From an uncultured bacterium (lineage in GTDB: Bacteria; Hydrogenedentota; Hydrogenedentia; Hydrogenedentales; CAILVY01): a DNA stretch of 64,000 bases. The notes beneath the pieces are model-generated. The model saw only the letters and a list, made by a program, of their open reading frames with translations, made no database searches and had not been told where the DNA came from. Where the stretch lies: assembly GCA_937951485.1 (NCBI GenBank), contig CALEDJ010000049.1, positions 5,246 to 69,245 of the forward strand, in the 5' to 3' direction. Below are positions 22,543 through 55,693 of the stretch, one piece after another. How positions within the stretch are numbered: the stretch's first letter is position 1; each line of letters opens with the position of its first letter. A program made the position numbers and the translations under genes.

Positions 22543-22579
22543 TGATAAACATTTATCTCCAGGCAATAAATGTTTATCA
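22543..22579. promoter_or_regulatory. Perfect 14-bp dyad, candidate enhancer site
   Basis: TGATAAACATTTAT at 22543-22556, nine bases, then the exact reverse complement at 22566-22579. It lies about 155-190 bases upstream of the -24 element, the usual distance for a sigma-54 activator binding site. It could instead be a terminator for the methyltransferase gene, but no T-run follows directly. Confidence 0.55.
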
Positions 22580-22733
22580 GAAGTGACCAACTCTTTTTCA
22601 AAATCAGGGGACATAGTGGTCAATTTTACTCAAGGGATTCCAGCCGACCGACATGAGGGCGGAAACGTAAATTATTGATATATAGAAACTTACAATTTAT
22701 TGTCCGTTTCTTGGAGTTGTTTTGTCATCTCTT

Positions 22734-22748
22734 TGGCACAAGACTTGC
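22734..22748 (+). promoter_or_regulatory. Sigma-54 (-24/-12) promoter
   Basis: TGGCACA-AGAC-TTGC matches the consensus TGGCACG-N4-TTGC at all positions but one. The GG (22735-22736) and GC (22747-22748) are 12 bases apart as required. Transcription would start near 22760, about 70 bases before the activator gene, and read into the export genes. Confidence 0.8.
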
Positions 22749-22828
22749 GCATAGAACGGCATTGTAAGCCATCGCAGAAGGAACATGAGACGTGGGCTGC
22801 GTTCCGCGATCGAAAGAGGAGATTTCCA

Positions 22829-23875: not shown

Positions 23876-23904
23876 ATTCACTATTATTGAGAGGAGGATG
23901 GGCG

Positions 23905-25155: not shown

Positions 25156-25170
25156 GAGTTCTTATTTCTT

Positions 25171-27471: not shown

Positions 27472-27496
27472 GACATTGTTTTTCGGGATTGCTTTA

Positions 27497-30106: not shown

Positions 30107-30121
30107 GATTCACCCAAAACC

Positions 30122-31354
30122 ATGACACAACCTGCAAAAAACGGCGCAGACATGGGCGAAAGGATCAGCCTCTTCGTCTTTATCGACGCGTTCGGATGGG
30201 AACTGGTCAAATATTATCCCTTCCTCGACGACATCCTCATGGTCAAGGCCCCCATGGACACCGTGTTCGGCTACAGTTCCACCTGCATCCCCACCATCCT
30301 CACCGGCAAAATGCCCCGCGAACACGGCCACTTCGCATTCTTCACCCGCGCCAACGGCGACAACACCCCCTTCGCACGATACAAACTCCTCGCCCGCATC
30401 CCCCGCGCCATCACCCGCCGCGGACGTGTCCGCGCGCGCATGAGCAAAATCCTCAAGCCCCTCCACGGCATCACCGGATACTTCCAACTCTACAACATGC
30501 CCTTCGAGCACCTCCACCGCTTCGACTACACCGAAAAACACGACCTCTTCCAGCCCGGCGGCATCAACGGCGGCATGCCCACCATCTTCGACTACCTCCG
30601 CATCAACGACATCCCCGCACACATCGCCGACTGGCACCTCAGCGAAACACAAAACCTCGCCGCCGCCCGGCGCGCCCTCCGCAACCCGCGCATCCGATTC
30701 GCCTTCGTCTACCTCGGCGCCATGGACAGCATCCTCCACAACGAAGGCAAATTCGGCGACGGCGTCCCCAATAAAATCCGCTGGTACGGCCACGAAATCC
30801 GCCGACTCCTCGACATCGCCCGCCGGCACTACCGCGAAGTCCGCCTCTTCGTCTTCTCCGACCACGGCATGACCGACACCACCGACTGCTGCCCCCTCAT
30901 GCAACGCATCGAGCGCCTCGGCCTCGAATTCGGCCGCGACTACCTCGCCGTCTACGACTCCACCATGGCCCGCTTCTGGTTCCACACCCCCGACGCCCGA
31001 CACCGCATCACCGACGCCCTCAGCGCCGAACCCCGCGGAAGCATCCTTAGCCCCGAACAACTCGCCCGATGGGGATGCGACTTCCCCGAAAACCACTACG
31101 GCGAATGCTTCTTCCTCATGAACCCCGGCATCCTCCTCTGCCCCTCCTTCATGGGAGAAAAACCCCTCGCCGCCATGCACGGATACGACCCCCAACACCC
31201 CGACTCCACCGCCGCTTTCATGAGCAATATCCCCGACACCCCGCGCCCCCACCGCCTCGACAACATCTTCGCACTCATGCGCGACGAAGCCGACGCCATA
31301 TCCGGCGCAACCGCCACCGAAGCCGCCAAATCGTCTCAAGAGGTCGCGCCATGA
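30122..31354 (+). CDS. Alkaline-phosphatase-superfamily (type I phosphodiesterase-like) protein
   Basis: A 410-residue protein of the alkaline phosphatase / nucleotide pyrophosphatase fold. The opening [13 protein letters not shown] supplies a metal-binding Asp, [20 protein letters not shown] carries the nucleophile Ser/Thr region, and FSDHGMTDT near residue 246 gives the second metal site (Asp-His). Such proteins in polysaccharide loci may transfer or remove phospho-groups such as phosphoethanolamine or phosphoglycerol, or act as hydrolases; none has a signal peptide here, so it acts in the cytoplasm or at the inner face (inference). It starts 15 bases after the transferase and overlaps the flippase by four bases. 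Third codon positions are almost all C or A, which leaves a full-length open frame on the opposite strand. Confidence 0.8.
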
Positions 31355-32877
31355 GTTCCCTGGCATCCCCAGTTGCGGCAGAGGTGCCGGTCCAATCCCT
31401 TGGGAGACAGATAATCCTGGGCGGAGCGGTGCTGTCTGTAGCGCGCTTGATGACGCGCGCGCTGGGGGTCCTTTCCGCCCTCACCATACCCCGGTGGCTT
31501 GGCCCCGCCGAGACGGGAATATTCGCCGTCGCAATGCTGGCGATCGGCGCAATCAATGCCTTCACGGAATCCGGCCTTGTGGCCGCGTTCATCCAACGGA
31601 AAAATGATTACGACCAATATATTCTGCCCGTCCGGACCTTTAATGCACTCCGGGGCGTGGTGTTGGCGGCAATCGTTTTCTTTTGCGCGCCCTATGTCGC
31701 CCATTGGATGGACAGTCCGCGTTCGGCGGACGTGCTGCGGGTCCTCGCGATCGTTCCGCTGGCCAACGGTTTGACGCCGATGATCTGGACACTGGCCACG
31801 AAGCGGCTCCAGTTCGCAGGGCCGGCGAAATACAATGTGTTCATCACCGCCGTTAATCTCGCAATCACCATTCCCCTCGCCTGGTACCTGATGAGCGTAT
31901 GGGCGTTGGTCTGGGGAACAGTGATATCCACCCTCGTCGGCCTGGCAGTTTCCACGCTTCTGAGCCGGGAAGGACGTGGATTCACCCTCAAATGGCGTCC
32001 TCTCAAGGATTTGCGCCGCTTCGGATTCTGGATATTCCTGACTTCTATCACTGGTTACATATATATTACCGCCGGAAACTGGATGATCGGCATTTTGCTG
32101 AATGTGCAAATCCTGGCGGTTTATACCCTGGCCACAAAGTTTTGCACGTTGTTCACCAGTGAGGCCGCCGGAATCGTCAACCAGATGATGCTCCCCGTCT
32201 TCTCCCATATTCAGGACGATCTGCCCCGTTTGCGGACCGCTTTCAGGAAATCCTTTGGAACACTTTCAATGATTGTCATCGGCGTAGGCGCTTTTTTCTG
32301 CGTCGCATCGCGCGATTACTTTGTCATCGTCCTGGGCGCAAAATGGGCGGACCACACCAATCTCTTCAACAGCCTTCTCCCCTGGTTGACGATCTGGGGC
32401 ATCTGCTGGGCCTTTGCCGGCGCTCAAAGCGGCGTCTTCCAGGCGCTCGGAAAACCCAACTGGTGGCTGGCGACCACTGTCATCATGTGCATAGCAATAC
32501 TTTTGCTGACGTGGCCTGCCGTGCGACTTTGGGGCGCGCTCGGCGCGGCCGCTTTCATGGGCGGCATCGCGGCTGCGATGCAATTTATCCGCAATCTCAT
32601 TCTTGCCCGCATGCTCCAGTTGCGCTACCGCGAAGTGCTGGACCATGTCGCCACGCCCGCGTTTGCGGGAATCCTGTCGGTAACCCTCGCGACCCTGGCG
32701 CGAGGTCATCTCACTGACAACATCTGGGGACAGGCCATCCTGGCGAACAGCGTTGTTGTGACCGTTTATCTGGGGACCCTCCTGGCTTTCTCCCGCCACC
32801 TCCACCCCAATCCGTTCGAGATGCTCGCACTCTTCAGGGATACGGTCATGGCCAAATACAGGGAATGGCGTGCATAA
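31351..32877 (+). CDS. Polysaccharide flippase (Wzx/MOP family)
   Basis: A 508-residue membrane protein of the Wzx-like oligosaccharide flippase family, which turns lipid-linked repeat units from the cytoplasmic to the periplasmic face. The start ATG at 31351 overlaps the previous stop (ATGA) with AAGAGG upstream. It opens with a soluble stretch and then GRQIILGGAVLSVARLMTRA, characteristic of the family, and has about 12-14 hydrophobic segments, for example AILLLTWPAVRLWGALGAAA. WLGPAETGIFAVAMLAIGAI is a conserved second helix region. It overlaps the following FrhB-like gene by eight bases. A full-length frame from 31069 in the same register lies inside the previous gene and is not used. Confidence 0.9.
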   Translation: MSSLASPVAAEVPVQSLGRQIILGGAVLSVARLMTRALGVLSALTIPRWLGPAETGIFAVAMLAIGAINAFTESGLVAAFIQRKNDYDQYILPVRTFNALRGVVLAAIVFFCAPYVAHWMDSPRSADVLRVLAIVPLANGLTPMIWTLATKRLQFAGPAKYNVFITAVNLAITIPLAWYLMSVWALVWGTVISTLVGLAVSTLLSREGRGFTLKWRPLKDLRRFGFWIFLTSITGYIYITAGNWMIGILLNVQILAVYTLATKFCTLFTSEAAGIVNQMMLPVFSHIQDDLPRLRTAFRKSFGTLSMIVIGVGAFFCVASRDYFVIVLGAKWADHTNLFNSLLPWLTIWGICWAFAGAQSGVFQALGKPNWWLATTVIMCIAILLLTWPAVRLWGALGAAAFMGGIAAAMQFIRNLILARMLQLRYREVLDHVATPAFAGILSVTLATLARGHLTDNIWGQAILANSVVVTVYLGTLLAFSRHLHPNPFEMLALFRDTVMAKYREWRA

Positions 32878-34246
32878 AGTTCTTATGGTGATGAAATCGA
32901 AAACAGAAAAGGAAGATCGCGGCTTCGGGTTGCTTCAAAAAGAAGTCATCGATCCCGACTTGTGCTGCCGGTGCGGCACCTGTGTAGCGGTGTGCCCGGA
33001 GGACAATATCCATTTCCCCGACCCCACAGGCAAATGCCTGCCGGCGGACAAGGGAACATGCCGCGACGGGTGCGCGCTGTGCAGCAGGGCATGCCCGGGC
33101 GCGGACAGTGATATGTCCCGCTTCTGTGAACAGGCACCCGGAGATCGCGATCCGGGCTTCGGCCTGGGGCCTTACCGAGAGATATGTCTCCTGAAAGCGG
33201 CAGACCCGGCGATTCGCGCCAAGAGCACCTCAGGCGGCGCGGTGACGGCCTTGTTGACCTATTGTCTGGAACATCGCATTGTTGACGGCGTTCTGAGCGT
33301 GGGGCCGGACCCCGGAGACCCGCGCCGCAGCGCCGCCAGAATTTCCCACAGCGCCGAGGAACTTCTCCAATGCATCCAGAGCCGCTATTGCGTGGTCCCC
33401 CTCAACGCTGCGCTGCGGCAACTAAACCCCGATAAAAAATATGCGATGGCCGGCCTGCCCTGCCAGGTCGAAGGATTGATGAAACTCCGGAAGCGCAGTC
33501 CCGTCCTCGTCGAAAATGTGTCGCTTGTCCTGGGACTCTTCTGCCACTCGACCATGTATTTCGAGGCCACGGAACGCTTGCTGGAATCCGCTGCGGGAAA
33601 CGGGCATACCCGCCTTAGCGCTGTTAAATACCGAGACGGCGATTTCCCCGGGCATTTCACGGTCCACCGGGAAAACGGCAGCGAGAAGATCGCGCATCTG
33701 GACCAACTTATGGTCTATTTCGACTTTTTCTCCCTGAACCGGTGCCGCCTCTGCATGGACCATGTCGCCGCGCTCGCCGATATCAGTTTTGCGGACCCCT
33801 TCCCGTTTCTCCGCGAACTCGCGGAAAACGACCGCAAATGGACCGCGGTCGTGGCGCGCACGGAAAAGGGTTCTTCCCTGCTGGAAGCGGCCCTGGCGGA
33901 TGGCGAGTATCTCACCCGACGCGAGGTCCGGGACAACCATGTGCGGGACTGGGACCGCGGATTGCACTCCAAGCAATGGATGCATCTCCTGCAAGTCGCC
34001 TCGGACAGGCGCTTGGGCTTGGCGGTCCCCGATTTCCATGCCCCCCTGCCCCCCATAGGCTTGATTAAAGCGCTGATCAATGCCGCCAAGGCGCGGGTCT
34101 TCTTCAACATCACGCTGGGATCGGTTGAAATGCTTAAGAATGCCATGTGCAGGGATTCCCGGATGAAGACACTGAAACAGTTCAGACGATGGCGGCGCAA
34201 GCGCAACCGTTGCCGTGTGAACAACATTGAAGGCGGTGCAGGGTAA
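32870..34246 (+). CDS. FrhB/coenzyme F420 hydrogenase beta-subunit-like iron-sulfur protein
   Basis: A 458-residue protein with two N-terminal [4Fe-4S] motifs (CCRCGTCVAVCP and CRDGCALCSRACPG) followed by the FrhB N- and C-terminal domains (STSGGAVTALLTYCLEH and AMAGLPCQVEGLMKLR). True FrhB reduces coenzyme F420, but members beside pyruvyl transferase genes in polysaccharide loci are thought to work on sugar or pyruvyl modification; the exact reaction is unknown. Start GTG 32870 overlaps the flippase end; ATG 32885 or 32891 are alternatives. The next gene begins immediately after its stop codon. Cysteines at LNRCRLCMDHVA add further metal ligands. Confidence 0.85.
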   Translation: MHKVLMVMKSKTEKEDRGFGLLQKEVIDPDLCCRCGTCVAVCPEDNIHFPDPTGKCLPADKGTCRDGCALCSRACPGADSDMSRFCEQAPGDRDPGFGLGPYREICLLKAADPAIRAKSTSGGAVTALLTYCLEHRIVDGVLSVGPDPGDPRRSAARISHSAEELLQCIQSRYCVVPLNAALRQLNPDKKYAMAGLPCQVEGLMKLRKRSPVLVENVSLVLGLFCHSTMYFEATERLLESAAGNGHTRLSAVKYRDGDFPGHFTVHRENGSEKIAHLDQLMVYFDFFSLNRCRLCMDHVAALADISFADPFPFLRELAENDRKWTAVVARTEKGSSLLEAALADGEYLTRREVRDNHVRDWDRGLHSKQWMHLLQVASDRRLGLAVPDFHAPLPPIGLIKALINAAKARVFFNITLGSVEMLKNAMCRDSRMKTLKQFRRWRRKRNRCRVNNIEGGAG

Positions 34247-35476
34247 ATGCTCAGCCAGACAAGAAAGGTCAAGGTGCTATTGGGCGGCGTCCCTTTTGGC
34301 CGCGACAACATCGGCGACGAGGCCATCCTGGAGTGCTCCATCGCCCTGTTGCGGCAATACTGCCCGGAAGCGCAGATCACGGCGGCCACCGGCGATCCGG
34401 AAAACACCGCCCGGCGCCTCGGCATCAACACCTGTACTCTGATCGGCTTTCCCGGCCATGAGGATGAAGAAGAAATCGGAGCGGAACTCCAGAACCACGA
34501 TGTCTTCATCTGGTGCGGGGCGACCGGTCTGTCCGACTACCCCGAAACGCCGCTGCGAATCATGGCCATCGCGCAGCGCCTGGGAAAAAAAACCATGCTC
34601 TGGGGCGTCGGCATGAATTCGGAACTGAATCCGGCGCTGTATCGCGTCCAACCGGGCAGGCGCAGCCGTGTCTTGTCGCTTGTCAACACGCTTTCCCTGC
34701 ATGCCATAGACGCCATCCGCTGGCAGGAACGCCTGTGGGAACGCCGCGTCCACCGGAAGATTCGCGCCTGTCTCAACCGCGCCGACCTCATCGTCGTGCG
34801 CGATGCAGAAACAAAGCAGTTGCTCCAGAATATCGGCGTTGTGAATGAAATCACTGTTGGCGGCGACGCCGCCATATCGCTGGAACCCGCCCCATGGGAC
34901 GCCCTGCCCCTGGACGACGCCACCCGCGACGTCCTCCAGTCCCCCAAACGCAAACTCGGCGTCTGCATCTCCGCACAGCGCGCGGTCAGGGACAGGGCCG
35001 GGCTGATTGACTGCCTTGACCGCGTCACCGAAAACGGGTTCGCCCATATCGTTTTTATTCCCATGAACCCTGTGACGGACCGCGCCCTCATGCGCGAACT
35101 CCAACAGGCCATGAAACATCCCGAAAAAACCACTCTGCTCCACGACATCCGCGAACCCCGGCATGTCATGACCGTCGTGTCCGCCCTCGACGCCGTCCTC
35201 AGCAGCCGCCTCCATCTCCTCATCTTCGCCTCCAACGCCGCCATCCCCATGATCGCCATCGCAAGAGGGTCCAAATTCGACAACTATCTCCGGCATTATG
35301 ACCTGGCGCCGACAGGCTCCGTGGAAGCATGTGACTTTGTTGGGCTCGCGCGCAGGACAATGGAAATGACAGTGGAGGAAGAAGGATATCGCACGCGCAA
35401 TGCCGATATACACGCCAAACTCGAAAAAGAATTGAGAACCGCCGCCGCGGTATTGGCCGCCACCATACGGAAATAG
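34247..35476 (+). CDS. Polysaccharide pyruvyl transferase family protein (CsaB-like)
   Basis: A 409-residue protein of the polysaccharide pyruvyl transferase family, which adds ketal pyruvate from phosphoenolpyruvate to sugar residues. It opens with VKVLLGGVPFGRDNIGDEAI, where N-x-GDEA is the family hallmark, and has KTMLWGVGMN, ADLIVVRDAETKQLL, LGVCISAQRAV and SSRLHLLIFASNAAIPMIAI, matching the C-terminal nucleotide-binding-like half. The start is directly after the stop of the FrhB-like gene (TAAATG), implying coupling. Pairing with an FrhB-like gene is a common arrangement in exopolysaccharide loci. The finished polymer would then carry acidic pyruvate groups (inference). Confidence 0.88.
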   Translation: MLSQTRKVKVLLGGVPFGRDNIGDEAILECSIALLRQYCPEAQITAATGDPENTARRLGINTCTLIGFPGHEDEEEIGAELQNHDVFIWCGATGLSDYPETPLRIMAIAQRLGKKTMLWGVGMNSELNPALYRVQPGRRSRVLSLVNTLSLHAIDAIRWQERLWERRVHRKIRACLNRADLIVVRDAETKQLLQNIGVVNEITVGGDAAISLEPAPWDALPLDDATRDVLQSPKRKLGVCISAQRAVRDRAGLIDCLDRVTENGFAHIVFIPMNPVTDRALMRELQQAMKHPEKTTLLHDIREPRHVMTVVSALDAVLSSRLHLLIFASNAAIPMIAIARGSKFDNYLRHYDLAPTGSVEACDFVGLARRTMEMTVEEEGYRTRNADIHAKLEKELRTAAAVLAATIRK

Positions 35477-35587
35477 TGTTAAATGCGCAACATGAAGAGA
35501 AGCATCTTACGTACACATCATCGGGCATGGCGGGATTAGCATGAAAATTTTCCGATCAGAAATCATGATTCCAGGGTTGCCGCTCGC

Positions 35588-36955
35588 ATGGAAATGAAGC
35601 ATATTGTTTTTCTGGCGGGGCTTTTCCTTTGCATCCCCGCAGGTACTATCGCCGCTTCCCTTTCGCGGCGTATTCAAGCAATTGTGCTGATGGCCTGCGT
35701 TTTCTCCACAGCATTTATAGATAGTGTTGATGTAAATTTCATGGAGCGATGGTGGTACCGCGGCACCACACGCGCCATTGAGATTTCCTTTGTAGATTTT
35801 TTTGTCTCTGTCTTGTTGTTAAGCGCACTTGTTTCCGGCCTGCGCGGGAAAAGCCGCCTGTTCTGGCCTGCCGGGTTGGGATTGATGTTTGTTTTTTTTC
35901 TCTATTGCGTTTGCAGCGTCCTGCTCTCCGATCCCCGATTGTTTGGCCTGTTTGAGTTGTCGAAAATGATTCGCGGCCTTCTGGCTTTTCTCGCCATCGC
36001 GCTTTATGTGCGCACACCGCGCGATGTGTACCTGTTTATCGTTGTTATAGGGGTGGTTCTTGTTTTTGAAGGCTCTTGGGCGATTATGCAGCGCTATTTA
36101 TGGGGATATATGCGTGTCCGCGGTTCCTTTGTTCATCCAAGCGCGCTTGCCAATTATTGCTGTCTTCTGGCCCCCTTGCTGCTGGCGACCGCCTTGGCCA
36201 AAGTGAATCCGCTGGTGCAGGGCTTGTGTATTCTGGCGTGGACGCTTGCCGTTGTCGCGGCCATTCTCTCCATCACAAGAATGGCTATTATCACTCTCGT
36301 GGTCGTATCTTTCGGCATACTGGTCTTCGCACTGGCCTCTCATTTCAATCCCAAGAGGTTGTCGCTGGTGGCGCTGTTGGGCATCGTGGGATTGGGACTT
36401 TTTATCCGGGGCTACGACAGAATGATGGAGCGTCATCTGGGAATGGTGGCGCTGGAGGAAGCCGGGGTGGAAGGGGCTGGCCGCCGGGTCTATTACGCCG
36501 AAGCCCTGAACATGGCGAGCACCCATGTATTTGGCGTGGGATTGAACAATTGGTCGTGGTGGCTGAGCGAGGAAAAGGGGTATCCTTATCATAGCACCGA
36601 CGAACCGGGGGATGGATATCGGGCCGTGATGGCGCATTCCGCGTTTGCACTGGCGCTGGGGGAACTGGGCTGGCCCGGCCTGTTCATTTTTGTGGCGCTA
36701 TGGGGGCAATGGCTTTTTCTTTCCGGGCGTTTTCTTTTCGTGCCCAAACCGGACCTGTTGACCAATGTGTTGTCCGGGTGCTTTTTTTCCACCATCGCAG
36801 CCGCCTTGTCGGCGGTCACCGAGCACAATTTCAGAAGTCAGTTGTTTTTTATTGTCTTCAATATGGTGCTGGGCTTCATGGTTGGGGTGCGCAGAACGAA
36901 GATGCAAAGTGAATGTCGCCAATTCACCGTCCAGAACCTGAACCAATGGACATGA
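35588..36955 (+). CDS. O-antigen ligase/polymerase-like membrane protein (Wzy/WaaL)
   Basis: A 455-residue polytopic membrane protein with about 11-12 predicted helices and the large periplasmic loop typical of Wzy polymerases and WaaL ligases. Supporting pieces: VRGSFVHPSALANYCCLLAP, GAGRRVYYAEALNMASTHVF and FGVGLNNWSWWLSEEKG before a loop with HSAFALALGELGWPGLFIF, all typical of the O-antigen ligase domain. It probably joins repeat units in the periplasm. The ATG at 35588 is taken (35594 is possible); a 111-base gap separates it from the pyruvyl transferase and no promoter was seen there. It overlaps the next gene by four bases (ATGA at 36952). Confidence 0.87.
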   Translation: MEMKHIVFLAGLFLCIPAGTIAASLSRRIQAIVLMACVFSTAFIDSVDVNFMERWWYRGTTRAIEISFVDFFVSVLLLSALVSGLRGKSRLFWPAGLGLMFVFFLYCVCSVLLSDPRLFGLFELSKMIRGLLAFLAIALYVRTPRDVYLFIVVIGVVLVFEGSWAIMQRYLWGYMRVRGSFVHPSALANYCCLLAPLLLATALAKVNPLVQGLCILAWTLAVVAAILSITRMAIITLVVVSFGILVFALASHFNPKRLSLVALLGIVGLGLFIRGYDRMMERHLGMVALEEAGVEGAGRRVYYAEALNMASTHVFGVGLNNWSWWLSEEKGYPYHSTDEPGDGYRAVMAHSAFALALGELGWPGLFIFVALWGQWLFLSGRFLFVPKPDLLTNVLSGCFFSTIAAALSAVTEHNFRSQLFFIVFNMVLGFMVGVRRTKMQSECRQFTVQNLNQWT

Positions 36956-38223
36956 AGAGCACCATGCGTATTGTAGCCGTCCCCCGTCGCTTCGTTCATG
37001 AGGATTGGGGCGGGGTGGAGACGTATGTTCTGGAAACCGGCCAGCGGATTCAGGCCATGGGGCATCATCTGGAGGTGTTGTGCCCGGCCATTTTGACCGA
37101 CAAGATGCGGGAGGATGTCGGGGGCCTGCCGGTGACGCGCACGCCGTATTTCTACCCTTATTGGGGGCTGTCGGCCTCGGCGCGGATGCAACTGGACAAG
37201 GTGGGCGGCAATCTCTTTTCTTTTTCCTTGCTTCGGGCGTTGAAACGCATTCCGGATATAGACATCATCCACCTGCATACCGGGAAACGCTTGGGCGGCA
37301 TCGTACGGACGGTGGCGCAGCGCCGGCGGATTCCTTATGTCATCACCCTGCACGGCGGCTTCTATGACCTTCCGGACAGCGAGGTGCAGGCCATGATGGC
37401 GCCGACGCGCGGCGCGTTCGAGTGGGGGAAAGTGCTGGGCTGGTGGGTGGGGGCGCGCCGCGTACTGGATGACGCGGCGGCGGTCTTCTGCATCGGGCGG
37501 AAGGAACAGCGGGAGGTTTCGGCGCGCTTTCCCGGGAAACGGGTGGAATACATGCCGAACGGCGTACACGTGAAGCGCTTCACGCAGGGCGACGGTCCGC
37601 GTTTCCGACAGACCTGCGGTATTCCCCAAAACGCCCGCCTGCTGACGACCATCGCCCGCATCGCGCCCCCGAAGAACCAACTGCTGTTGGTTCGGGCATT
37701 GCCCGCATTGCGCCGGAAGGACCCCTCGGTCCATGTCGCCCTTGTCGGTTCTGTCAATGACCACGCTTATCATCAGGAATTGCTGCGCACCGCACGTGAA
37801 CTCGGAGTCGCCGACGCGGTGACCATCATTCCCGGTCTGCAGCCCGAAGACCCGCTGCTCGTGGACGCCTACCACGCCGCCGATGTCTTTGTGCTGCCCT
37901 CCGTCCACGAACCCTTCGGCATTGTCGTGCTCGAGGCGTGGGCCGCCGGACGACCGGTCGTCGCTGCCCGCGTAGGCGGTGTCCCCGACTTCGTGGACGA
38001 CGGTGTCAACGGCCTGCTTTTCGATCCCAGCGACCTGGAAGATTTCCTCCGCGCCTGCAACGCGCTTACGCCCGACCATGCCGCAGATCTCGTGGCTGCC
38101 GCCCGTCAAAAGGTGGACCAGTACGACTGGGATGCAAACACGGCGCGCTTGCTTCAAACCTATCTCGATGTGATCCAGGAATACGGACAAGGCCGCGAGA
38201 GAGATGATGGAAAAGTCAGGTGA
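36952..38223 (+). CDS. Family 4 glycosyltransferase
   Basis: A GT-B glycosyltransferase of about 423 residues. The start is uncertain: ATG 36952 overlaps the previous stop (ATGA), while 36946 or 36964 (with GAAGAG upstream) would also fit. The N-terminal domain has IVAVPRRFVHEDWGGVETYV and IDIIHLHTGKRLGG; the C-terminal nucleotide-sugar domain has VEYMPNGVHVKRF, RIAPPKNQLLLVRAL and the family E-x7-E motif HEPFGIVVLEAWAAG near residue 318. It is the last plus-strand gene of the polysaccharide operon and would add one sugar of the repeat unit to the lipid-linked acceptor in the cytoplasm. Confidence 0.9.
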   Translation: MKSTMRIVAVPRRFVHEDWGGVETYVLETGQRIQAMGHHLEVLCPAILTDKMREDVGGLPVTRTPYFYPYWGLSASARMQLDKVGGNLFSFSLLRALKRIPDIDIIHLHTGKRLGGIVRTVAQRRRIPYVITLHGGFYDLPDSEVQAMMAPTRGAFEWGKVLGWWVGARRVLDDAAAVFCIGRKEQREVSARFPGKRVEYMPNGVHVKRFTQGDGPRFRQTCGIPQNARLLTTIARIAPPKNQLLLVRALPALRRKDPSVHVALVGSVNDHAYHQELLRTARELGVADAVTIIPGLQPEDPLLVDAYHAADVFVLPSVHEPFGIVVLEAWAAGRPVVAARVGGVPDFVDDGVNGLLFDPSDLEDFLRACNALTPDHAADLVAAARQKVDQYDWDANTARLLQTYLDVIQEYGQGRERDDGKVR

Positions 38224-41342: not shown

Positions 41343-41358
41343 TGACAGATTTCTGTCA
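41343..41358. promoter_or_regulatory. Palindrome upstream of GH9 gene
   Basis: TGACAG, ATTT, CTGTCA, about 90-100 bases before the -24 element; its half-site TGACA/TGTCA also occurs in the palindrome at 8992-9009 with a different spacing. A further dyad with 8-bp arms (ATTGCCAA/TTGGCAAT) is at 41284-41308. Either could be an activator binding site. Confidence 0.4.
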
Positions 41359-41444
41359 ATCTCCGCGGCGGCGCGTCTTTCATCCGTTTTCAACATTTTA
41401 TCTAAGTCGTTCTGGCCAACAATTTATATTGTCCGGCACTGAAA

Positions 41445-41459
41445 TGGCATGCGCTTTGC
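41445..41459 (+). promoter_or_regulatory. Sigma-54-type promoter of GH9 gene
   Basis: TGGCATG-CGCT-TTGC fits the -24/-12 consensus with one change (T for C in GGCAC). GG at 41446-41447 and GC at 41458-41459 are 12 bases apart. The implied transcript starts about 85 bases before the ATG at 41558. Confidence 0.65.
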
Positions 41460-41557
41460 CTGTTCAGAAGTCGAATCAGAACGGATTCGGACAAAGGCGC
41501 ATGGAATGCCATCGATCCAGAAGGAATCAAAAAGGTGAACCCAGGAGGGTCGCAGCC

Positions 41558-46036: not shown

Positions 46037-46948
46037 TTATCCCTGATAGCGTTTCAGTATGACGCGCTGTCCTCTCTTGGCGTCCTTGTCGCCGGTGGCG
46101 AGGCGCCATTCGCCCAGTTTGTGTCCCTTGTAGTAGGCCCAATGCATCACCGCACGCCTGACAGGGATGTAGGGCAGGTCGGCAAATTCACCTTGGCGCA
46201 TGGCATACGCCCATTCCTTCAGAATGGCGGAGAATGCCCTGCCGCATTCTGCGAGCGGGTTGTTTTTATCTCCGAGAAAGAGGGCCAGCGCTTCGCCGTC
46301 ACAAAACAGACGGCCGTACAACTGCCGCAGATTATGGTTGTGGGAGTGCATCGCGAGGACATTTTTGAGATATCTGATTTTTTTCCCATTCTTCTTCGCC
46401 CAATACCCCCATTCCGTGTCTTCTGAACCCCATGCGTTTTCAAAAAACGGGTGTTCCTCCCACGCCGTTTTTCGCATGATGGAAAAAGGCGCCTCGAAGG
46501 TAATCCATGGGGGCGTGGCGTCGCTGTCCGGGAAAGCAGATTCGAGTTCGAGCCGAACCCAACTCCATGCATCCGGGCGCGCGACCTGGCGCGCATAGGC
46601 GGCCTGCACGTCAGGATCGTCCAGCGCAGCCACCAGAAGAGTCAGCGCATCGGGGGCGAGCGGGACAGTATCCGAGTTTTGAAACACGAGCCATTCCCCG
46701 CGCGCATGTGCGGCGCCCAGATTGAGGGCCTTTCCGGAAATATACTCTTCCGGCGGCATATGAATCAGGGTGCAGGGATATTTCCCGACAATTTCGAGCG
46801 TGCTGTCTGTTGATCCTGAATCAACAACAATCACTTCAAAGTCTTGATAGTCCTGCGAAAACAGCGCGGCAAGCGATTGGCCGATGACATTCTCGCAGTT
46901 CTTGGTGCGCACGATCACAGATACGCGGGGACGCTTTTCGTTCGTCAC
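46037..46948 (-). CDS. Family 2 glycosyltransferase
   Basis: A 303-residue GT-A glycosyltransferase. The opening PRVSVIVRTKNCENVIGQSL, the FEVIVVDSGSTDSTLEIV block and WLVFQNSDTVPL near residue 92 (in place of a strict DxD) are typical of rhamnosyl-/GT2 enzymes, as is ENAWGSEDTEWGYWAKKNGK downstream. It overlaps the upstream deacetylase gene by four bases (ATGA) and is the last gene of the four-gene minus-strand operon starting at 50161. It probably adds a sugar to the same or a related surface glycan. Confidence 0.9.
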   Translation of the reverse strand: MTNEKRPRVSVIVRTKNCENVIGQSLAALFSQDYQDFEVIVVDSGSTDSTLEIVGKYPCTLIHMPPEEYISGKALNLGAAHARGEWLVFQNSDTVPLAPDALTLLVAALDDPDVQAAYARQVARPDAWSWVRLELESAFPDSDATPPWITFEAPFSIMRKTAWEEHPFFENAWGSEDTEWGYWAKKNGKKIRYLKNVLAMHSHNHNLRQLYGRLFCDGEALALFLGDKNNPLAECGRAFSAILKEWAYAMRQGEFADLPYIPVRRAVMHWAYYKGHKLGEWRLATGDKDAKRGQRVILKRYQG

Positions 46949-47775
46949 AGTGCTGTGTCCTTTCTATCGTATGGCCGGCACACTTCGCCCATATGCACGG
47001 TCTGACGGGATGCGATGAATGCGAGGAGTCTCTCGAAAGACTTGAACCGGTCACAGAGGTACATGACGATGGGATGAACAAGCATATTGGACAGAATGCC
47101 TTGTTCTTCATGGTGGCGGAGTTCTTCCAGCACGCGCTCGGTCCATTCTTCGATGTAGAAGGATTCCGGGCCATAATCATCCGACCAGTTATAGCGGCGC
47201 ACCCACCAGTTTACCCACTCCGGGGTGCGCTCGGCATGGTAAAGGTGCTCGTGATCGGGCATGACATTGATAGGGAAATTGAGAATGCCGCTGTGATGCG
47301 GCACAGGCCCGATGGCGTCGCGTTTCACGCCGTCGGAACATATGGAGATATGGCATTCGTGGAGCACCTTTTCGGTGAACGGGCCATGCATATACATGTG
47401 GTTGCGCCAGGAGCAGATTCTCCGTCCGCTTTTTTTTCTGATGATGTCCACCGTTTTGCGCACGTCGCGGCGCTGATACCATTGAGGGCCGTTGTAACTG
47501 CCGTTGATCTTGTTCCAGGCGCGGTGCCACCAGTCCGGTTTGAATGCGGCATAGGTGTGACCGCCGATTTCGACCAGGGGATGGTCACAGATGGGCTTCA
47601 GATCGTCCCATTCCTCCGCGAAACATTTCCCTGTGACAAAAAACGTAACCTTGACGTTGGCTTCTTCCAGCATCTTGAGATACCGTCGGGCGACCTGCAC
47701 TTCCGTGATGTCGCAATGCGCCTGATTGCCGTTTTTCAGGCTCATGTGATGGATGTCTCCAGTCAGGCAGATCAT
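46945..47775 (-). CDS. NodB-like polysaccharide deacetylase-family protein (divergent)
   Basis: A 276-residue protein resembling polysaccharide deacetylases, which remove N- or O-acetyl groups from glycans. The first metal motif region is ICLTGDIHH, followed by VKVTFFVTGKCF, as in the family. The usual His-Ser-x-x-His metal motif appears as EIGGHTYAAF, so its second His is Ala; the Arg motif is SWRNHMYMHG. No signal peptide is visible, unlike many secreted deacetylases, which suggests a cytoplasmic substrate such as a lipid-linked sugar, or a non-catalytic role. It overlaps its neighbours by four bases on both sides. Confidence 0.75.
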   Translation of the reverse strand: MICLTGDIHHMSLKNGNQAHCDITEVQVARRYLKMLEEANVKVTFFVTGKCFAEEWDDLKPICDHPLVEIGGHTYAAFKPDWWHRAWNKINGSYNGPQWYQRRDVRKTVDIIRKKSGRRICSWRNHMYMHGPFTEKVLHECHISICSDGVKRDAIGPVPHHSGILNFPINVMPDHEHLYHAERTPEWVNWWVRRYNWSDDYGPESFYIEEWTERVLEELRHHEEQGILSNMLVHPIVMYLCDRFKSFERLLAFIASRQTVHMGEVCRPYDRKDTAL

Positions 47776-48998
47776 GGTGTCTCACCCGCTGTGAGCGGCA
47801 TGCGCCATTTTCCGGCCAGGCACAGAAAATTAGGCTCAACGATGTTTCCCCACGCATGCAGATATGCGCGGCGCAGTTCATCTCGCGCGGTGTTTTCCGC
47901 ATGGAGAAAGCGGGCCGTGAATTCCCGATAATGTTTATCATCGGGAGCGTATGCCACGGCGGGGAACAGAATGGGCAGAATGCCGCGTTTGCCAAGCACG
48001 CGATATCCAAGCCGGGGGCCGATGCCCGATGCATCGGACCATGCGCCTGGAGTCCTCAGGCAGTTGACCGCCTTCTTCGCCCAGGCCCGCAGGCTGCGCA
48101 TATCCGCATGCAAAGCGTTCCGGAACGCCGCCTCGGGGTATGCATGCCACGTCAAATCGGAGCGTCCCAGCCGTTTTCTTTCACATGCGAGGTGTATTGG
48201 TTCCAGTACCTGGCGCAATTCCGCCATCCATGCGCGCAAATCAGCAGTGCTGTACGGCGCGACATCGGGCTGAAACCTGAATTCAATCGCCATGTCATAG
48301 AGGTGACGCATCGCTTCGGGCGCTGCGGCGCTGGCGCGCATGCGTTTCTGTTTTTCCACGTAACTCCAGTGATATTTCCCTTCGAAAAAAAGGTGCGCAT
48401 CGCCGTAACCGATAATGGCTTTCATGGCGTGCTTCACGATCATTTCCCTGTCTTCGGGCGACATCGGGCGCGACGCCATGAGTTGTTCGTTGATGAGGAG
48501 CAAGGTGCCGCGGTTCACGAGCAGATTCAGAACATCCCAGGCGGGAATACGCGCCACAGCAAACTGTTTCAGTGACGGCACGAGGTCGGCATCACCCCAG
48601 ATGGTCTTGTGGCCGAATCGCATGTCATACCACATCACCAGGCTGGGCGACCGGCGAAGGCGTGTTTCGTCAACAAGAGAAAAATCAAATTCGATATGTT
48701 GTTCTCGTGTCAAGGGAAAGAGGACATTTTTCAGACGGGTTTTGAGCGCCTGCTGTTGCTTCCGGGACAGCGACCGCGTTATGACGAGAAAATCCAGATT
48801 GTTGTGAGGGTGTTCTTCGTTATCCGTCACCATCACGCCGCCCTCTCCCCTGCCATAACCACCGAGCAAAACCATTGCCCTGCATGCGGGGGGCGCGAGC
48901 ACGTCATTCGCTTTCGAGGCGATTTCACGAAGAAGGGCGGTCATCCGCTCCTCGAAAGCCGGGCTGCCGCGCACCGAAAACCGTCCCCACGGGCGCAT
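47772..48998 (-). CDS. Nucleotidyltransferase-fold protein
   Basis: About 408 residues. ATG 48998 is chosen because AAGGAGG lies eight bases upstream and it overlaps the upstream stop by one base (TAATG). Residues about 35-110 show a polymerase-beta-like nucleotidyltransferase pattern: AMVLLGGYGRGEGG, HNNLDFLVITR, then IEFDFSLVDE giving a later acidic residue. The rest is helical and lacks known motifs. Such proteins occur in glycan operons but their reaction is not established; it could transfer a nucleotidyl or phospho-group, or be a regulatory pseudo-enzyme because the first acidic pair looks reduced (Asn-Leu-Asp). Confidence 0.6.
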   Translation of the reverse strand: MRPWGRFSVRGSPAFEERMTALLREIASKANDVLAPPACRAMVLLGGYGRGEGGVMVTDNEEHPHNNLDFLVITRSLSRKQQQALKTRLKNVLFPLTREQHIEFDFSLVDETRLRRSPSLVMWYDMRFGHKTIWGDADLVPSLKQFAVARIPAWDVLNLLVNRGTLLLINEQLMASRPMSPEDREMIVKHAMKAIIGYGDAHLFFEGKYHWSYVEKQKRMRASAAAPEAMRHLYDMAIEFRFQPDVAPYSTADLRAWMAELRQVLEPIHLACERKRLGRSDLTWHAYPEAAFRNALHADMRSLRAWAKKAVNCLRTPGAWSDASGIGPRLGYRVLGKRGILPILFPAVAYAPDDKHYREFTARFLHAENTARDELRRAYLHAWGNIVEPNFLCLAGKWRMPLTAGETP

Positions 48999-50161
48999 TA
49001 TCGCGCCCTCCTTTCCAGGATTGCATGGAAACACGCCAGCAGTTCATGAACATGCTTTTCCGGCCGGAACAATTCGTGGTATTTTGTGCGTGCGTTTTCT
49101 CCCATCTTGTCCCGCAACCCATTTGTTTCGACGATGCAATCCATGGCCTGTGCCAGCGCCTGTGGATTGTTCGGGGGAACGGTCAGGCCGGTGTGGCCAT
49201 GTTCCAGCCACGTTGAGACGCCGCCGATATCTGTGGCGATTACAGGTGTCCCGTAACTCATGGCTTCCGGTCCCACCAGCGCAAACGATTCCGGTTGTCG
49301 GACAGGCAGCACCACGCAGGCGGCCCTGCGATACCAGTCGGACAAGGCCTCATGGCTGAGTCGTCCCAGGAAAATCACCCGTTCGTGCAGGCCCAATTCG
49401 TTGCACAACGCAAGGAACATGGCTTCCTGGCGGCCCTGACCGGCAATGACAAGTTTTGTCGGGCGTCTGGTCAGCGCCATCGCCCGCAAAAGCGTATCCA
49501 CGCCTTTGCTGCGCACCAGGTGCCCGACAAATAAAAACAAATCCGGCTCGCGCGCAATCCGCGCGCCATCCTGCGGCGGCAGCGCATACAGCGGAATCAC
49601 ATGGACACGGTCGGGGGGGAAACCATGTTGGATCATCAGTGCCGCCATGTAACACGAAGCCACCACCAGGGCATCAAGTCTTTTGTTTACCTTGCCAGCA
49701 GCCCGAAGCGTTCGCACAAGGCGCAGGCGAATGCCGGGAAAGGCGTCCATGCGATTGATGAATCCCAGACAGGGAAAATAGCAGCGCATCCCCATCGGTT
49801 TGTGGCATGTCCGATGTCTTATTGCCGTGTACCGGTGCTCGCGTGGACAAAACAATCGGGTGTCATGAAAGAAACGCACCGTGGGAATTCCGCTTTCAAC
49901 GATGGCTTCAATGGTTCCGAGGTTGTCAAGATGGTGGATGTAGACAAGGTCCGGCTGGATGGCCGCCACCTGGGCCTGGATAGCCGCCATGGGGAAGGCC
50001 TGGTCGAATGGCTTCACAAATTCGGTGGAGAAGGGGTGTCGGCAGTCGTACAGAAGGGAAGACTGGACGTTGTACGCCCGTAACAGGCCGGCGGTATTAG
50101 AAATATACTGTTCGCAGCCGCCAATGAAATCCGCTGCTTCATTTACCCACAACACACGCAT
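48998..50161 (-). CDS. Family 4 glycosyltransferase
   Basis: A 387-residue GT-B glycosyltransferase. The opening RVLWVNEAADFIGGCEQYI, the donor-domain pieces LFLFVGHLVRSKGVDTLL and LVIAGQGRQEAMF, and QPESFALVGPEAMSYGTPVI near residue 293 are typical. The cysteine-containing stretch RLFCPREHRYTA with CHKPMGMRCYFPC is a pattern seen in a subgroup of GT4 enzymes. It is the first gene of the minus-strand operon (50161 to 46037); a candidate sigma-70 promoter lies at 50322-50349. Confidence 0.9.
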   Translation of the reverse strand: MRVLWVNEAADFIGGCEQYISNTAGLLRAYNVQSSLLYDCRHPFSTEFVKPFDQAFPMAAIQAQVAAIQPDLVYIHHLDNLGTIEAIVESGIPTVRFFHDTRLFCPREHRYTAIRHRTCHKPMGMRCYFPCLGFINRMDAFPGIRLRLVRTLRAAGKVNKRLDALVVASCYMAALMIQHGFPPDRVHVIPLYALPPQDGARIAREPDLFLFVGHLVRSKGVDTLLRAMALTRRPTKLVIAGQGRQEAMFLALCNELGLHERVIFLGRLSHEALSDWYRRAACVVLPVRQPESFALVGPEAMSYGTPVIATDIGGVSTWLEHGHTGLTVPPNNPQALAQAMDCIVETNGLRDKMGENARTKYHELFRPEKHVHELLACFHAILERRAR

Positions 50162-50521: not shown

Positions 50522-51916
50522 CTACGATTCCCCGATGAGGTTGTACTTGGAAATACGGCGGCGGAGCGTCTGATAACTCATATTGAGTATCTGACATGCT
50601 TTTCGGCGGTTCCATTGGCATTTTTCCAGTACTTCCATAATCCGTTCGGGGCTTGGTTCCTTGGTCCCCTCCGCACCGTTTGCACTTGGGGCCGCCACGC
50701 CGGTGTCTGTGCCATGGGTGCGCTCGCCGTAGGCGTCCGGGCCGATATGCAGTTTCCCCAGGGTCAACCAGCGCTTGATGGTGCTCTCCAACTCACGCAC
50801 ATTCCCCGGCCAATGCCAGTCGCACAGGGCCGCCATCTCCTCGGGGGTGATGTCGGGCGCATTGCGCCTGTCGAGTTCGTGGTGCTTTTGCACAAAATGG
50901 CGCACCAGCAGCGGGATATCCTCTTTGCGTTCGGCAAGCGACGGCACGCGAATGCAGATTTCATTCAGCCGGAAAAAGAGGTCCTGCCGGAAAAACCGGT
51001 CCAGAATGCGTTGCTCGATGGGCGCATTGGTTGCGGCGATGATCTGCACATCCACCTTGACGGATTTTTTTCCGCCCAGTTTGGTGAATTCCTTGTGCTC
51101 GATCACCTGCAGCAATTTCGCCTGAATGCTTGGGGACACATCGCAGATTTCATCCAGGAAAATAGCCCCCTTGTCAGCAAGGATGAAACGCCCCGGCTTC
51201 GGGGCGGTCGCCCCGGTGAAGGCCCCCTTTTCATATCCGAACAGTTCACTTTCCAGCAATTGTTCGGGCAATGCGGTGCAGTTGACCTTCACGAAGGGCA
51301 TGTCCCGGCGGGGCGACAGGCGGTGGATTTCACGCGCCACCACGTCCTTGCCGACGCCGCTCTCGCCCCGAATCAGGCAATTCAGATTGGTCTGGGCCAC
51401 CTGCCGGATGACAGCACGCAATTCCTGGATGGCCTGGCTCACCCCGACGAGCAGGGAAGGTTCCTGGTCGGTGTCGCCCTCCGCCATCGGCGCGATTTTC
51501 CGGCGGGCCTTCACCGCGCGCTGCAATTCCGCGCGCACCTCTCCCAGGCTGAACGGACGCGGCAGGAAACCGGAGGCCCCCCGCTGTACGCAATCCATCA
51601 CCAGGCGCGGCGAAGCGTGCACCGACGAACACAGCACCACCGGCCTGTTGCCGGTATTCATCAACCGCGACAGCACCTCCATGGTAAACCCGGATTCCGG
51701 ACGAATCTCCATCAAAATGGAGGCGATGCCGTTGTGCTGGGCGAGTTCAATGGCCTGTTCGGGCGTCGTGGCGTTTTTGACGCGGTATCCTGAATGGGAA
51801 AGGCCGCGCTCCAGGGACCATCGCACTCCCGGATCGCTTTCCACAACCAGCACGTTGACCTCTTTCTTTTCCCTTGCGATGGATTCAGACATTCCGGAAA
51901 CGTGTGCCTGCATCAT
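50522..51916 (-). CDS. NtrC-family sigma-54 activator with degenerate receiver
   Basis: A 464-residue three-domain regulator. ATG 51916 overlaps the upstream stop by four bases (ATGA). Receiver (about 15-130): acidic pocket VLVVESDPG, but the phospho-acceptor site is ILMEIRPESG with Glu in place of Asp, and the conserved Lys is Arg (FLPRPFS). AAA+ domain: Walker A RGESGVGKD, GAFTGA loop (YEKGAFTGATAP), Walker B FLDEICD. C-terminal Fis-type helix: WNRRKACQILNMSYQTLRRR, nearly the same as that of the activator at 22829. The Glu substitution often mimics the phosphorylated state, so this activator may be constitutively competent. It is coupled to the kinase-like gene upstream. Targets are unknown; the sigma-54 promoters at 22734 and 41445 are candidates. 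Confidence 0.92.
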   Translation of the reverse strand: MMQAHVSGMSESIAREKKEVNVLVVESDPGVRWSLERGLSHSGYRVKNATTPEQAIELAQHNGIASILMEIRPESGFTMEVLSRLMNTGNRPVVLCSSVHASPRLVMDCVQRGASGFLPRPFSLGEVRAELQRAVKARRKIAPMAEGDTDQEPSLLVGVSQAIQELRAVIRQVAQTNLNCLIRGESGVGKDVVAREIHRLSPRRDMPFVKVNCTALPEQLLESELFGYEKGAFTGATAPKPGRFILADKGAIFLDEICDVSPSIQAKLLQVIEHKEFTKLGGKKSVKVDVQIIAATNAPIEQRILDRFFRQDLFFRLNEICIRVPSLAERKEDIPLLVRHFVQKHHELDRRNAPDITPEEMAALCDWHWPGNVRELESTIKRWLTLGKLHIGPDAYGERTHGTDTGVAAPSANGAEGTKEPSPERIMEVLEKCQWNRRKACQILNMSYQTLRRRISKYNLIGES

Positions 51917-53580
51917 GATACGCCTATCTCCTCCAGTTCCTGGGTTGAACTCAGCGCGTTCCTGGGAAGAATCACGCTGAATGCGCACCACCCCTCCATT
52001 TTATGCTCAATTGTCAGCGTGCCTCCGCAGCCCCGGATGGTCCGCTGCGCCATAATGAACTTCGGATGACTCCATAGGGCGGCCGGAACAAAGCGGTCCG
52101 TCACCCGACGCGCCACGCCGAATAACTCCGAACTCAACCCGTCGTAACTGACCTCAAAAAGGACCGTGTCGGCCCCGTTGTCGCGCAGCCGCAGGCAAAC
52201 TTGACGTCCGTTTTCCACCGAACGCACGGCGCTCGTGATAAGGTCCAGAAAGGTGCGCGCCAAAGCGGCGCCATTGAACAGCACGCACTCGCTGCTGGTG
52301 TGGAAATCCTTGTTGATCACGATGCCCCGCTGCTCGATCACGCCCGCCAGGAAGTCGAGCGCCTGGTCCACAAAATGTTCCAGATGCACTGTCTCCACTG
52401 TGTTCCTCTGTGGGGAGGACAAGATGCGGAGTTCCTTTAACTGTTGTCGCAGGTGTTCCACGTTTTCGTTGATAATGGCCATCCCCTCCATCCCCTCCTG
52501 CGACAGGCCGCTTTCCATCACCACATCCGCCGCCGTCCGAATCGCGGTCAACATCTGCACCATTTCCCGCGAAATGTCCAACGCCAGATTGCCGACGCTG
52601 GCCCGCCGCGCCGCGTAGTGGAACAGGCGCATTTCCTGCCATTTCGAGGCGATGATCCCGGCGCATGCGGCCAGAAACGCATCGCATTCGGCGTCCGCTT
52701 CGAAATCGCGCGGCAAGAAGAAACCCACCGTGCAATAGAGCCGCCCCAGGACCCCCTGGGGATAGGTCCGCGCTTGCCAGGCGCTTGTGTCCAACCCTAA
52801 ATGCGATTCCACCGCAGCCGCGAGGTCGCCATAGGCAGTCCCCGATCCGTCGGACATTTCCGCCGCCGGGTTGTCCGCTGACGGCTCCGCCGTCACCACC
52901 ACCGGCCTGCCATTCTCGGCGGGCGTCACCGCGATGAAGCATTCGCGCGAATGCGTGGTCGCCAACGCCACGCAGTGCAGCGGCACGCACGGCGCCAGTT
53001 TGTCAAACAGGCTCCGGAACAGCGCCTCTTCCGTATGCGCTTCCTCCGGCAGCCGGTTCAGTTGGAGCAGCACTTCCTGGCGAATATTCACCAGTTCTAT
53101 ATGACTGGCATGACGCCGCAGGTCCGCTGTCGCTTCCGCAACCCGCGTCCGCAGCAGGTCCCGTTCCTCAGCCAGCGCCTTCAGCAGTTCGTCGCGTTCA
53201 CGCGTCACCTCGTGGTGGTGCAACGCGCGCCCCAGCGCCGCCTGAAACGTGGTGAAATCCACCGGCTTCACCAGATAGTCAAATACCCCCGCCCGCATGG
53301 TTTCCACGATGGTCTCAGGGCGCGCGTCGGCCGTCAGGATGATGGGGGTACAGCACGGATTGCATTGCCGGACAATCGGCACCAGAGACAGGCCATTGCC
53401 GTCCGGTAGCCCCAAGTCAATGATGGAACACGCAAAGGCACGCTCCGCAAGCAGCGCCTTGGCTTCCCCGCACGACGCGGCCTCGGTGTAGGCATGCCCC
53501 AAACGCTCCAGCAATGCGCACACAGCGGTGCGCACCACGAGATCATCCTCTACCACCAATATGGATAAGTGAACCCCCAA
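51913..53580 (-). CDS. Receiver-GAF-pseudokinase signalling protein
   Basis: A 555-residue protein starting at TTG 53580 (GAGGGG and CGAGG upstream). The N-terminal receiver is intact: LVVEDD, phospho-acceptor Asp in SIIDLGLPDG, ILTAD, and Lys in YLVKPVD. A short coiled coil (about 125-165) leads to a GAF-like domain (about 170-310) and a histidine-kinase-like module. There the H-box reads LALDISREMVQML, Arg standing where the phospho-His should be; the N-box region is FLDLITSAVRSVENG without the usual Asn; and the ATP-lid glycine motifs are eroded (SYDGLSSELFG). It should therefore not autophosphorylate but may respond to phosphorylation of its own receiver by another kinase and pass the signal by protein contact. 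It is coupled to the sigma-54 activator. Confidence 0.82.
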   Translation of the reverse strand: MGVHLSILVVEDDLVVRTAVCALLERLGHAYTEAASCGEAKALLAERAFACSIIDLGLPDGNGLSLVPIVRQCNPCCTPIILTADARPETIVETMRAGVFDYLVKPVDFTTFQAALGRALHHHEVTRERDELLKALAEERDLLRTRVAEATADLRRHASHIELVNIRQEVLLQLNRLPEEAHTEEALFRSLFDKLAPCVPLHCVALATTHSRECFIAVTPAENGRPVVVTAEPSADNPAAEMSDGSGTAYGDLAAAVESHLGLDTSAWQARTYPQGVLGRLYCTVGFFLPRDFEADAECDAFLAACAGIIASKWQEMRLFHYAARRASVGNLALDISREMVQMLTAIRTAADVVMESGLSQEGMEGMAIINENVEHLRQQLKELRILSSPQRNTVETVHLEHFVDQALDFLAGVIEQRGIVINKDFHTSSECVLFNGAALARTFLDLITSAVRSVENGRQVCLRLRDNGADTVLFEVSYDGLSSELFGVARRVTDRFVPAALWSHPKFIMAQRTIRGCGGTLTIEHKMEGWCAFSVILPRNALSSTQELEEIGVS

Positions 53581-54614
53581 ACCTCGTATACCCCTCGGTT
53601 AATATTCGCCCCTTCTTATTAACCAAACCCTTTTCCTTCCCCTGGATGCGCCGTGCGGCCCCCAGAAGATTAATCACTTTTGAATCAAATTTTATTATAC
53701 ACCATAAACTTCCGATATGCAAGCATATTTTTCTGCCACAAGACGGTGCGATATTCCCCAGATTTGCTCGAGGAATCATACAGCCTCCGGCATTTTATGA
53801 CTTCCGACGAACCATCATGACCCCAAAAAAAGCACCGGGCGGCCGCGTAAGGGGCACAAACGCGACCGCCCCGCCCTTATGAGTTGGCAACTCACCTTGT
53901 GCTTAGAAGTTTTTCCACTGTTCCTCCAATTCATCAACATCACGCCGACCGCCGGCGCACCCACCTGTTGCCACCCTCACAAGATCGATGTTGATAATCC
54001 CGTCCGTCGCCCGTTCCGGACCGGCAACCATTCACCCGATGAAGCGTTGTGTCTTCTCTTCGTCTTCCTCGTTCCTGCAGGGAGACGCTTATTCACCTTG
54101 CTTTGCAGGCATAATTCATACCAAAGATGAACGAATACGAAAGTTCTTCTAATGGAAGAATTTATGAAGAATGACATTCTCAAATAAATTTTCCAACCAG
54201 TAAATTGTTTGTCAATCCAGCACAACACGTGACCGTTCACGTTGTCAATACACCTCTCAATACATCGGCGGATTGCGGAACAAAGCGGGGCCGGTTCCGA
54301 TGGGAGCCGATGGCACATTTCCAAATACCGCGGCTCTCCCCAAAGAGGGCGGTGCGTTCTGATGTCTCGTTTCATGGAAGCGCCGTTCGTTGGGTGGTTT
54401 GGATATCATCGAGCATGTCAGTACACAGCATATTTATGTCCACACCGACCAGACAGGATTCTTAATCGGAAAAGGACCGCCCTTTGGTTTCTGGAAAAGA
54501 CGAGGTTTTTTTTACTGGTCCCGGCTGGACATCGCCGCGCAGAGGAATGTGGTAAACTTTGGATATGCCCGGCGCGTTTGCGTACACGCCGGCATTTTCG
54601 GGACTTATTCGACG
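53581..54614. other. Long AT-richer intergenic region
   Basis: About 1030 bases between a minus-strand and a plus-strand gene, less GC-rich than its neighbours, so it may hold promoters and a decayed gene. Visible structures: a dyad TTCTTC/GAAGAA (54144-54160), two direct copies of TTGTCAAT (near 54210 and 54242) and an imperfect dyad around ACAACACGTGA (54222-54244). No frame in it has family motifs or a good ribosome site. Confidence 0.5.
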
Positions 54615-55617: not shown

Positions 55618-55693
55618 ACAATGAGGGTAGTGGAATGACGGGGTCGCGAACGTTGATACCGCCGCAAGCAGCCGGAGAGAAGGAGTGTGCAAA

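Follow-up and report, generated by a model that had tools for sequence, protein, structure and literature searches.

Within the window, the 64,000-nucleotide stretch of DNA analysed here as a whole, two adjacent genes on the minus strand encode a kinase-like protein and a transcription activator, hereafter K and R. K (51913..53580) is a pseudo-histidine kinase of 555 aa, and R (50522..51916) is an NtrC-type sigma-54 activator of 464 aa that carries a pseudo-receiver. The start of R is corrected here from 51991 to the ATG at 51916, which has GGAGGAG upstream and forms the ATGA overlap that couples R to K. A sigma-70-like promoter, TTGCAT-17 bp-TATAAT, was read by eye ahead of the pair (53694..53722, minus strand). 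Downstream of R lie glycosyltransferases and a polysaccharide deacetylase-like protein recognised by Pfam (46037..50161, minus strand); within this group, the 420-aa protein at 47772-49034 (minus strand) gave no convincing Pfam match. Very large open reading frames are also present in the window, at 15301-21306 on the minus strand (2001 aa) and at 41285-45514 on the plus strand (1409 aa, with a choice-of-anchor D domain), together with a 1145-aa frame with long Gly-Glu repeats at 55685-59122.

The domain order of K is receiver, long helix, putative GAF-like domain, DHp-like hairpin and CA-like domain. The N-terminal receiver (53236..53562, minus strand; Pfam Response_reg, 3.5e-18) is the sole confident Pfam domain of the protein, and all of its phosphorylation residues are intact, namely E11/D12, D55 (the phospho-Asp, 53416-53418), T83 and K105. 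In the kinase-like core, Arg338 (52567..52569) occupies the phospho-His site, with SREM replacing the A-H-E of the H-box, and Ser450 (52231..52233) occupies the site of the N-box Asn, with DLITSAVR replacing the N-box; downstream of the latter site, the sequence contains no D-x-G-x-G / G-x-G-x-G box. Arg at the phospho-His site, the missing N-box Asn and the eroded glycine motifs had all been described in the first-pass annotation, and all are present in the sequence. No PAS domain of K was matched in the Pfam scan.

In the AlphaFold2 model of K (mean pLDDT 82, pTM 0.42), the receiver and its long helix are followed by an alpha/beta domain, a DHp-like hairpin of two helices and a CA-like domain; how these domains pack together is unsure because of the low pTM. 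Judging from this model, the alpha/beta domain is probably GAF-like; it has no Pfam match. Foldseek matched the DHp-CA part to ZraS, RetS and the pseudokinase DivL, among others; the best fold matches of K include LvrB, a kinase under receiver control. The VIA-align list for K is filled by receivers and gives little information on the remaining domains. With these fold matches and the loss of the catalytic residues, K belongs among the pseudo-histidine kinases.

R, likewise encoded on the minus strand, begins with a pseudo-receiver (51524..51853; Pfam Response_reg match), in which Glu stands at the phospho-Asp site (GAG at 51707-51709, within LMEIRPESG) and Arg at the site of the conserved Lys (51557-51559). 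The sigma-54 AAA+ domain (50951..51451; Pfam Sigma54_activat, 1.3e-64) and a DNA-binding domain of the Fis-type HTH class (50543..50647; Pfam HTH_8, 1.3e-10) follow. The GAFTGA, Walker A and Walker B motifs are all present. The Glu and the complete AAA+ engine attributed to R earlier are both borne out. A sigma-54 AAA+ domain with GAFTGA joined to a Fis-type HTH identifies R as an NtrC-type enhancer-binding protein, and its receiver fold without the phospho-Asp identifies it as an aspartate-less pseudo-receiver protein. PADLOC matches of R were discounted, as they cover only the common AAA+/HTH part.

Across a sample of 68 genomes of the phylum, K occurs in about 30 and R in 28-29, and where both lie on one contig they are adjacent and in the same orientation. 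The His site of K is Arg or Lys in 29 of the 30 assessable proteins; one divergent copy has Gln there, and His is found in none (0/30). The N-box Asn is absent from 27/28 K proteins, the single exception being a copy with a frameshift, from an assembly that is 6% contaminated; the glycine boxes are likewise lost. Pfam, applied to 23 K orthologues, matched the receiver in 23/23 and gave weak matches to HisKA in 7 and to HATPase_c in 5. The acidic pair, Asp, Thr and Lys of the K receiver are kept in all in-frame orthologues, in agreement with the earlier claim that this receiver is the only intact phosphorylation site of the pair. In R, the phospho-Asp site is Glu in 27/27 proteins, the second acidic residue is lost (acidic in 0/27) and the Thr site is Val in 21/27, the last two losses having been missed by the first-pass annotation. 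The Arg-for-Lys replacement, which it had listed as well, is real in the window copy and peculiar to it: the conserved Lys is kept in 26/27 R proteins, and the substitution falls away as a general trait.

Between close relatives, dN/dS is 0.04-0.11 for K and R alike. Phylogenetically, the R proteins group in a single clade (100/100) that sits on a long branch; the other activators sampled from this genome, which mostly have Asp, fall outside it. With the kinase residues and the regulator phospho-Asp both missing, the pair falls outside the canonical two-component systems. In a published survey, the His is missing in 0.9% of HisKA domains and the Asp in 2.0% of receivers (PMC12632262); because both losses are that rare, yet occur in one operon in about 30 genomes, their coincidence in K-R is more than chance. 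Strain-specific decay or a sequencing error, in favour of which only aberrant copies in other genomes can be cited, the frameshifted K of genome G064 being an example, is exceedingly improbable and was rejected: the same losses recur across many genera, in about 30 genomes, under purifying selection and in open frames. Orthologues with normal His and Asp, the finding by which the earlier interpretation was to be judged wrong, were searched for, and none was found among the 30 K and 27 R proteins assessed. Collectively, these data support the conclusion that the K-R pair is without the residues for His-Asp phosphotransfer and that the loss is ancestral and maintained by purifying selection.

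In relatives, the genes around K-R encode PEP-CTERM proteins and sugar transferases for exopolysaccharide, and a further gene there is divergent from K; the product of this divergent gene (L053:7086-7721, minus strand, and its relatives) combines a coiled coil with a degenerate GGDEF-like domain. PEP-CTERM proteins are present in 27/27 K-bearing genomes vs 5/33 others of a 60-genome set (p 2.4e-12), and strong exosortase matches in 22/27 vs 4/33 of the same set. K and R themselves co-occur with p 1.5e-12; like the PEP-CTERM and exosortase comparisons, this test ignores kinship, and the p-values are too small because the genomes are related.

Promoter analysis revealed a -24/-12 element before 54 of 73 PEP-CTERM genes, vs 1 in the reversed-matrix control, at a threshold of 10 bits or more and with a matrix that approximates the published consensus. 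When spaced words were counted in the 220 bp before 52 of the sigma-54 promoters, GTCA-N4-TGAC appeared in 13 sequences, vs no word pair above 6 in shuffled sets. The refined palindrome, rTTnGTCA-N4-TGACnAAy, is present in 46/52 promoters (shuffles average 2.5), in most cases centred between -80 and -165 relative to the -24 element, and the palindromes are phased at 10.5 bp (p ~0.001). Because the motif was built on those same 52 promoters, independent sets were needed. The divergent gene beside K provides one of them: at about 14 loci it has a strong palindrome at approximately -108 to -125 together with a sigma-54 site; as a control, 418 kb of block-shuffled sequence, scanned in three passes, yielded 3 composites. 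A second is provided by EBP2, a receiver-less sigma-54 activator, which has an upstream palindrome in 18/20 relatives, usually accompanied by a sigma-54 site and usually near -145. Exact palindromes in whole genomes were found in 14/29 R-bearing vs 6/39 R-lacking genomes (p 0.006), a weak separation because single sites occur in coding DNA too. At 4786-5092 of locus L205 (G000:C38), a FlgB-like flagellar gene is divergent from the PEP-CTERM gene, and the two have one R-box in common, between sigma-54-like sites.

The same arrangement is observed on the plus strand of the window. An R-box, GTTTATCAGAAGTGACCAAC (22572..22591), is centred at -151 from the sigma-54 site of EBP2, and a second, weaker one (8.1 bits) lies at 22615..22634. 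The -24/-12 element, TTGGCACAAGACTTGCG (22733..22749), is followed by EBP2 itself (22829..23875), a predicted target of R at the head of a complete exopolysaccharide cluster (23887..38223). This cluster encodes an export protein, a Wzc-like kinase, a sugar transferase, a flippase, an FrhB-like protein, a pyruvyl transferase, Wzy and a glycosyltransferase; the genes for the FrhB-like protein and the polysaccharide pyruvyl transferase lie side by side (32870-34246 and 34247-35476). Elsewhere in this genome, both the palindrome and the sigma-54 element are present at the sole PEP-CTERM gene detected, and both lie upstream of the gene for a sugar transferase-WecG fusion in the exosortase locus, which also has PrsT-like proteins, exosortase and EpsI. 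The sites at EBP2 of the window and in this exosortase locus make up a further independent set for the motif. A further sigma-54 match in that locus (L206:8315) was discarded as internal to a PrsT-like gene. Comparison of sigma-54 promoters, which the first-pass annotation had suggested as a route to the regulon, thus led to a predicted regulon of PEP-CTERM, exosortase and exopolysaccharide genes that it had not foreseen. The predicted exopolysaccharide/PEP-CTERM regulon is strongly supported by these sequence data and is the firmest new result of the analysis.

It is less straightforward to decide which protein binds the palindrome. EBP2 is found in 31/68 genomes, with a distribution almost the same as that of K and R, and its HTH is similar to that of R; for these two reasons EBP2 may own or share the palindrome. 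If it were the owner, EBP2 would regulate itself and drive the PEP-CTERM genes, and R would control something else. It is true that EBP2 tracks the palindrome across genomes about as closely as R, and the likeness of the HTH domains fits too, but the palindromes are concentrated next to K-R, ahead of the divergent gene and the R-adjacent PEP-CTERM genes, and EBP2 has no sensory domain, as would suit a downstream relay; we regard this assignment as rather unlikely. Three PEP-CTERM genomes without a detected R bear on the same question: in G024 and G056, neither element stands before the genes examined, and in G053 the elements are weak. Genome G001, of the same family as the window, has R with Glu and has both elements, with strong palindromes before PEP-CTERM genes and EBP2. 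The pattern over these four genomes points to R, or R together with EBP2, as the putative palindrome binder, and R is probably the protein bound there.

In the G001 draft assembly, K was detected neither beside R nor elsewhere in the genome. The R orthologue, at 7731-9212 (minus strand) of L207 (G001:C123:12000-27000), adjoins sugar transferase and PEP-CTERM genes. As R, its Glu and its operator sites are kept there without a detectable K, R seems able to work alone, which suggests that one lineage can dispense with K. The reverse situation is seen in G024, where the divergent K with Gln at the His site (L062 and L204, G024:C37) has no R beside it and R was not detected in the genome.

Taking these observations together, we favour, with slightly better than even confidence, a reading in which K and R form a non-phosphorylating gate of the NifL-NifA kind over an exopolysaccharide/PEP-CTERM/exosortase regulon, the receiver of K being its only phospho-input. 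R would bind rTTnGTCA-N4-TGACnAAy upstream of sigma-54 promoters and would open them unphosphorylated, having a complete AAA+ engine and Glu fixed at the phospho-Asp site; EBP2, in the exopolysaccharide or the exosortase locus, would be one conserved target. Glu at this site acts as a phosphate mimic in many regulators, not in all (PMC12632262). K would dock on the pseudo-receiver of R via its DHp-like hairpin, most likely restraining R as NifL does NifA. Another kinase would phosphorylate the K receiver, most likely changing the long helix behind it, and this change would tighten or release the grip of K on R. Restraint by binding was chosen because, among readings that give each conserved part a role, it is the simplest, and the fold matches of K to LvrB, RetS and DivL are counted in its favour; the sign of the effect is suggested by one K-less genome, itself a draft assembly. 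Within this gate, the GAF-like domain of K may be the real input and the receiver secondary.

The opposite sign, in which Glu leaves R partly competent and K with a phosphorylated receiver binds it and completes activation, is unlikely. It would agree with the retention of K in 27/29 R-bearing genomes and with the partial activation that Glu often gives (PMC12632262), but in G001 R, its Glu and strong operator sites are all kept although K was not detected. A third arrangement would leave R constitutively active and controlled by its amount only, with K placed in the operon for co-expression and acting elsewhere, for example by partnering another kinase or by serving as the output of its own receiver. 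The sigma-70-like promoter before K-R and the persistence of the divergent K of G024 without a detected R are consistent with it; the close linkage of the two genes throughout the phylum, the ATGA coupling and the retention in K of the DHp-like hairpin, the receiver-docking element in relatives, argue against it and make it quite improbable. Returning to the gate, its extension to the whole phylum, with both phosphotransfer sites lost and an outside kinase acting through the K receiver and contact on a phosphomimetic R, which through EBP2 would drive the exopolysaccharide and PEP-CTERM genes in a cascade, is tentative and as a joint reading falls somewhat short of an even chance. The observation made in the first-pass annotation is confirmed, and its interpretation, a rewired pathway controlled by contact, is partly supported.

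Among known systems, PrsK-PrsR, the PEP-CTERM regulatory system of Proteobacteria (PMC1569441), is nearest to K-R in role. Both consist of adjacent genes for a kinase or kinase-like protein and a sigma-54 activator near exopolysaccharide genes, and in both the PEP-CTERM genes have sigma-54 promoters with an upstream activator site; RpoN dependence has been shown for a PEP-CTERM gene (PMC9850573). However, R scores 274.6 bits against the PrsR model (TIGR02915), below the cut-off of 502.6, and the PrsK model (TIGR02916) was not among the 25 of 75 matches listed. PrsK is a transmembrane kinase, whereas K is receiver-led and catalytically dead, and operator motif 1 of PrsK-PrsR ends in TTTACA about 63 bp upstream of the sigma-54 site, whereas the GTCA-N4-TGAC palindrome of K-R lies farther upstream, at about 100-150 bp. 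Membership of K-R in PrsK-PrsR was rejected on the model cut-off and the different operator.

In mechanism, a close parallel is NifL, a kinase-like protein without phosphotransferase activity that restrains NifA by proven direct contact (PMC12998174). Each system pairs such a protein with a sigma-54 activator, although NifL senses through PAS domains and NifA carries a GAF domain, where K-R has a receiver on K and a pseudo-receiver on R, and the contact proven for NifL-NifA is a prediction for K-R. In LvrB, phosphorylation of the receiver drives the central helices into a coiled coil and releases the catalytic domains (PMC13269768). K shares the layout of LvrB, with a receiver at the N-terminus and a long helix leading from it to DHp and CA; unlike LvrB, which autophosphorylates, it has neither the His nor the ATP-binding motifs. 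DivL, the dead kinase core of which reads the phosphorylated receiver DivK~P and acts on another kinase (PMC4211667), resembles K in having a kinase core without kinase activity, in line with the fold match in the DHp-CA part; K differs in carrying its own receiver and in being paired with a transcription activator. As for R, Glu is the commonest natural replacement in aspartate-less pseudo-receivers, which R resembles in being without the phospho-Asp, the second acidic residue and usually the Thr (PMC12632262). Unlike the surveyed proteins, R has a partner kinase that is itself dead and is conserved alongside it in the operon, as well as a predictable regulon. A partial literature search, with K and R compared within the phylum, found no publication describing the pair.

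How pseudo-receivers are switched on and off has been called a mystery (PMC12632262). In K-R, a natural Glu-for-Asp activator comes with a dead partner that is conserved, and both its operator and its target genes can be predicted, which opens the question to direct reporter tests. The 2006 study of PEP-CTERM found its motifs only in Proteobacteria and left other regulators still to be found (PMC1569441); R is a candidate to fill that gap, as a regulator of PEP-CTERM/exosortase genes outside Proteobacteria.
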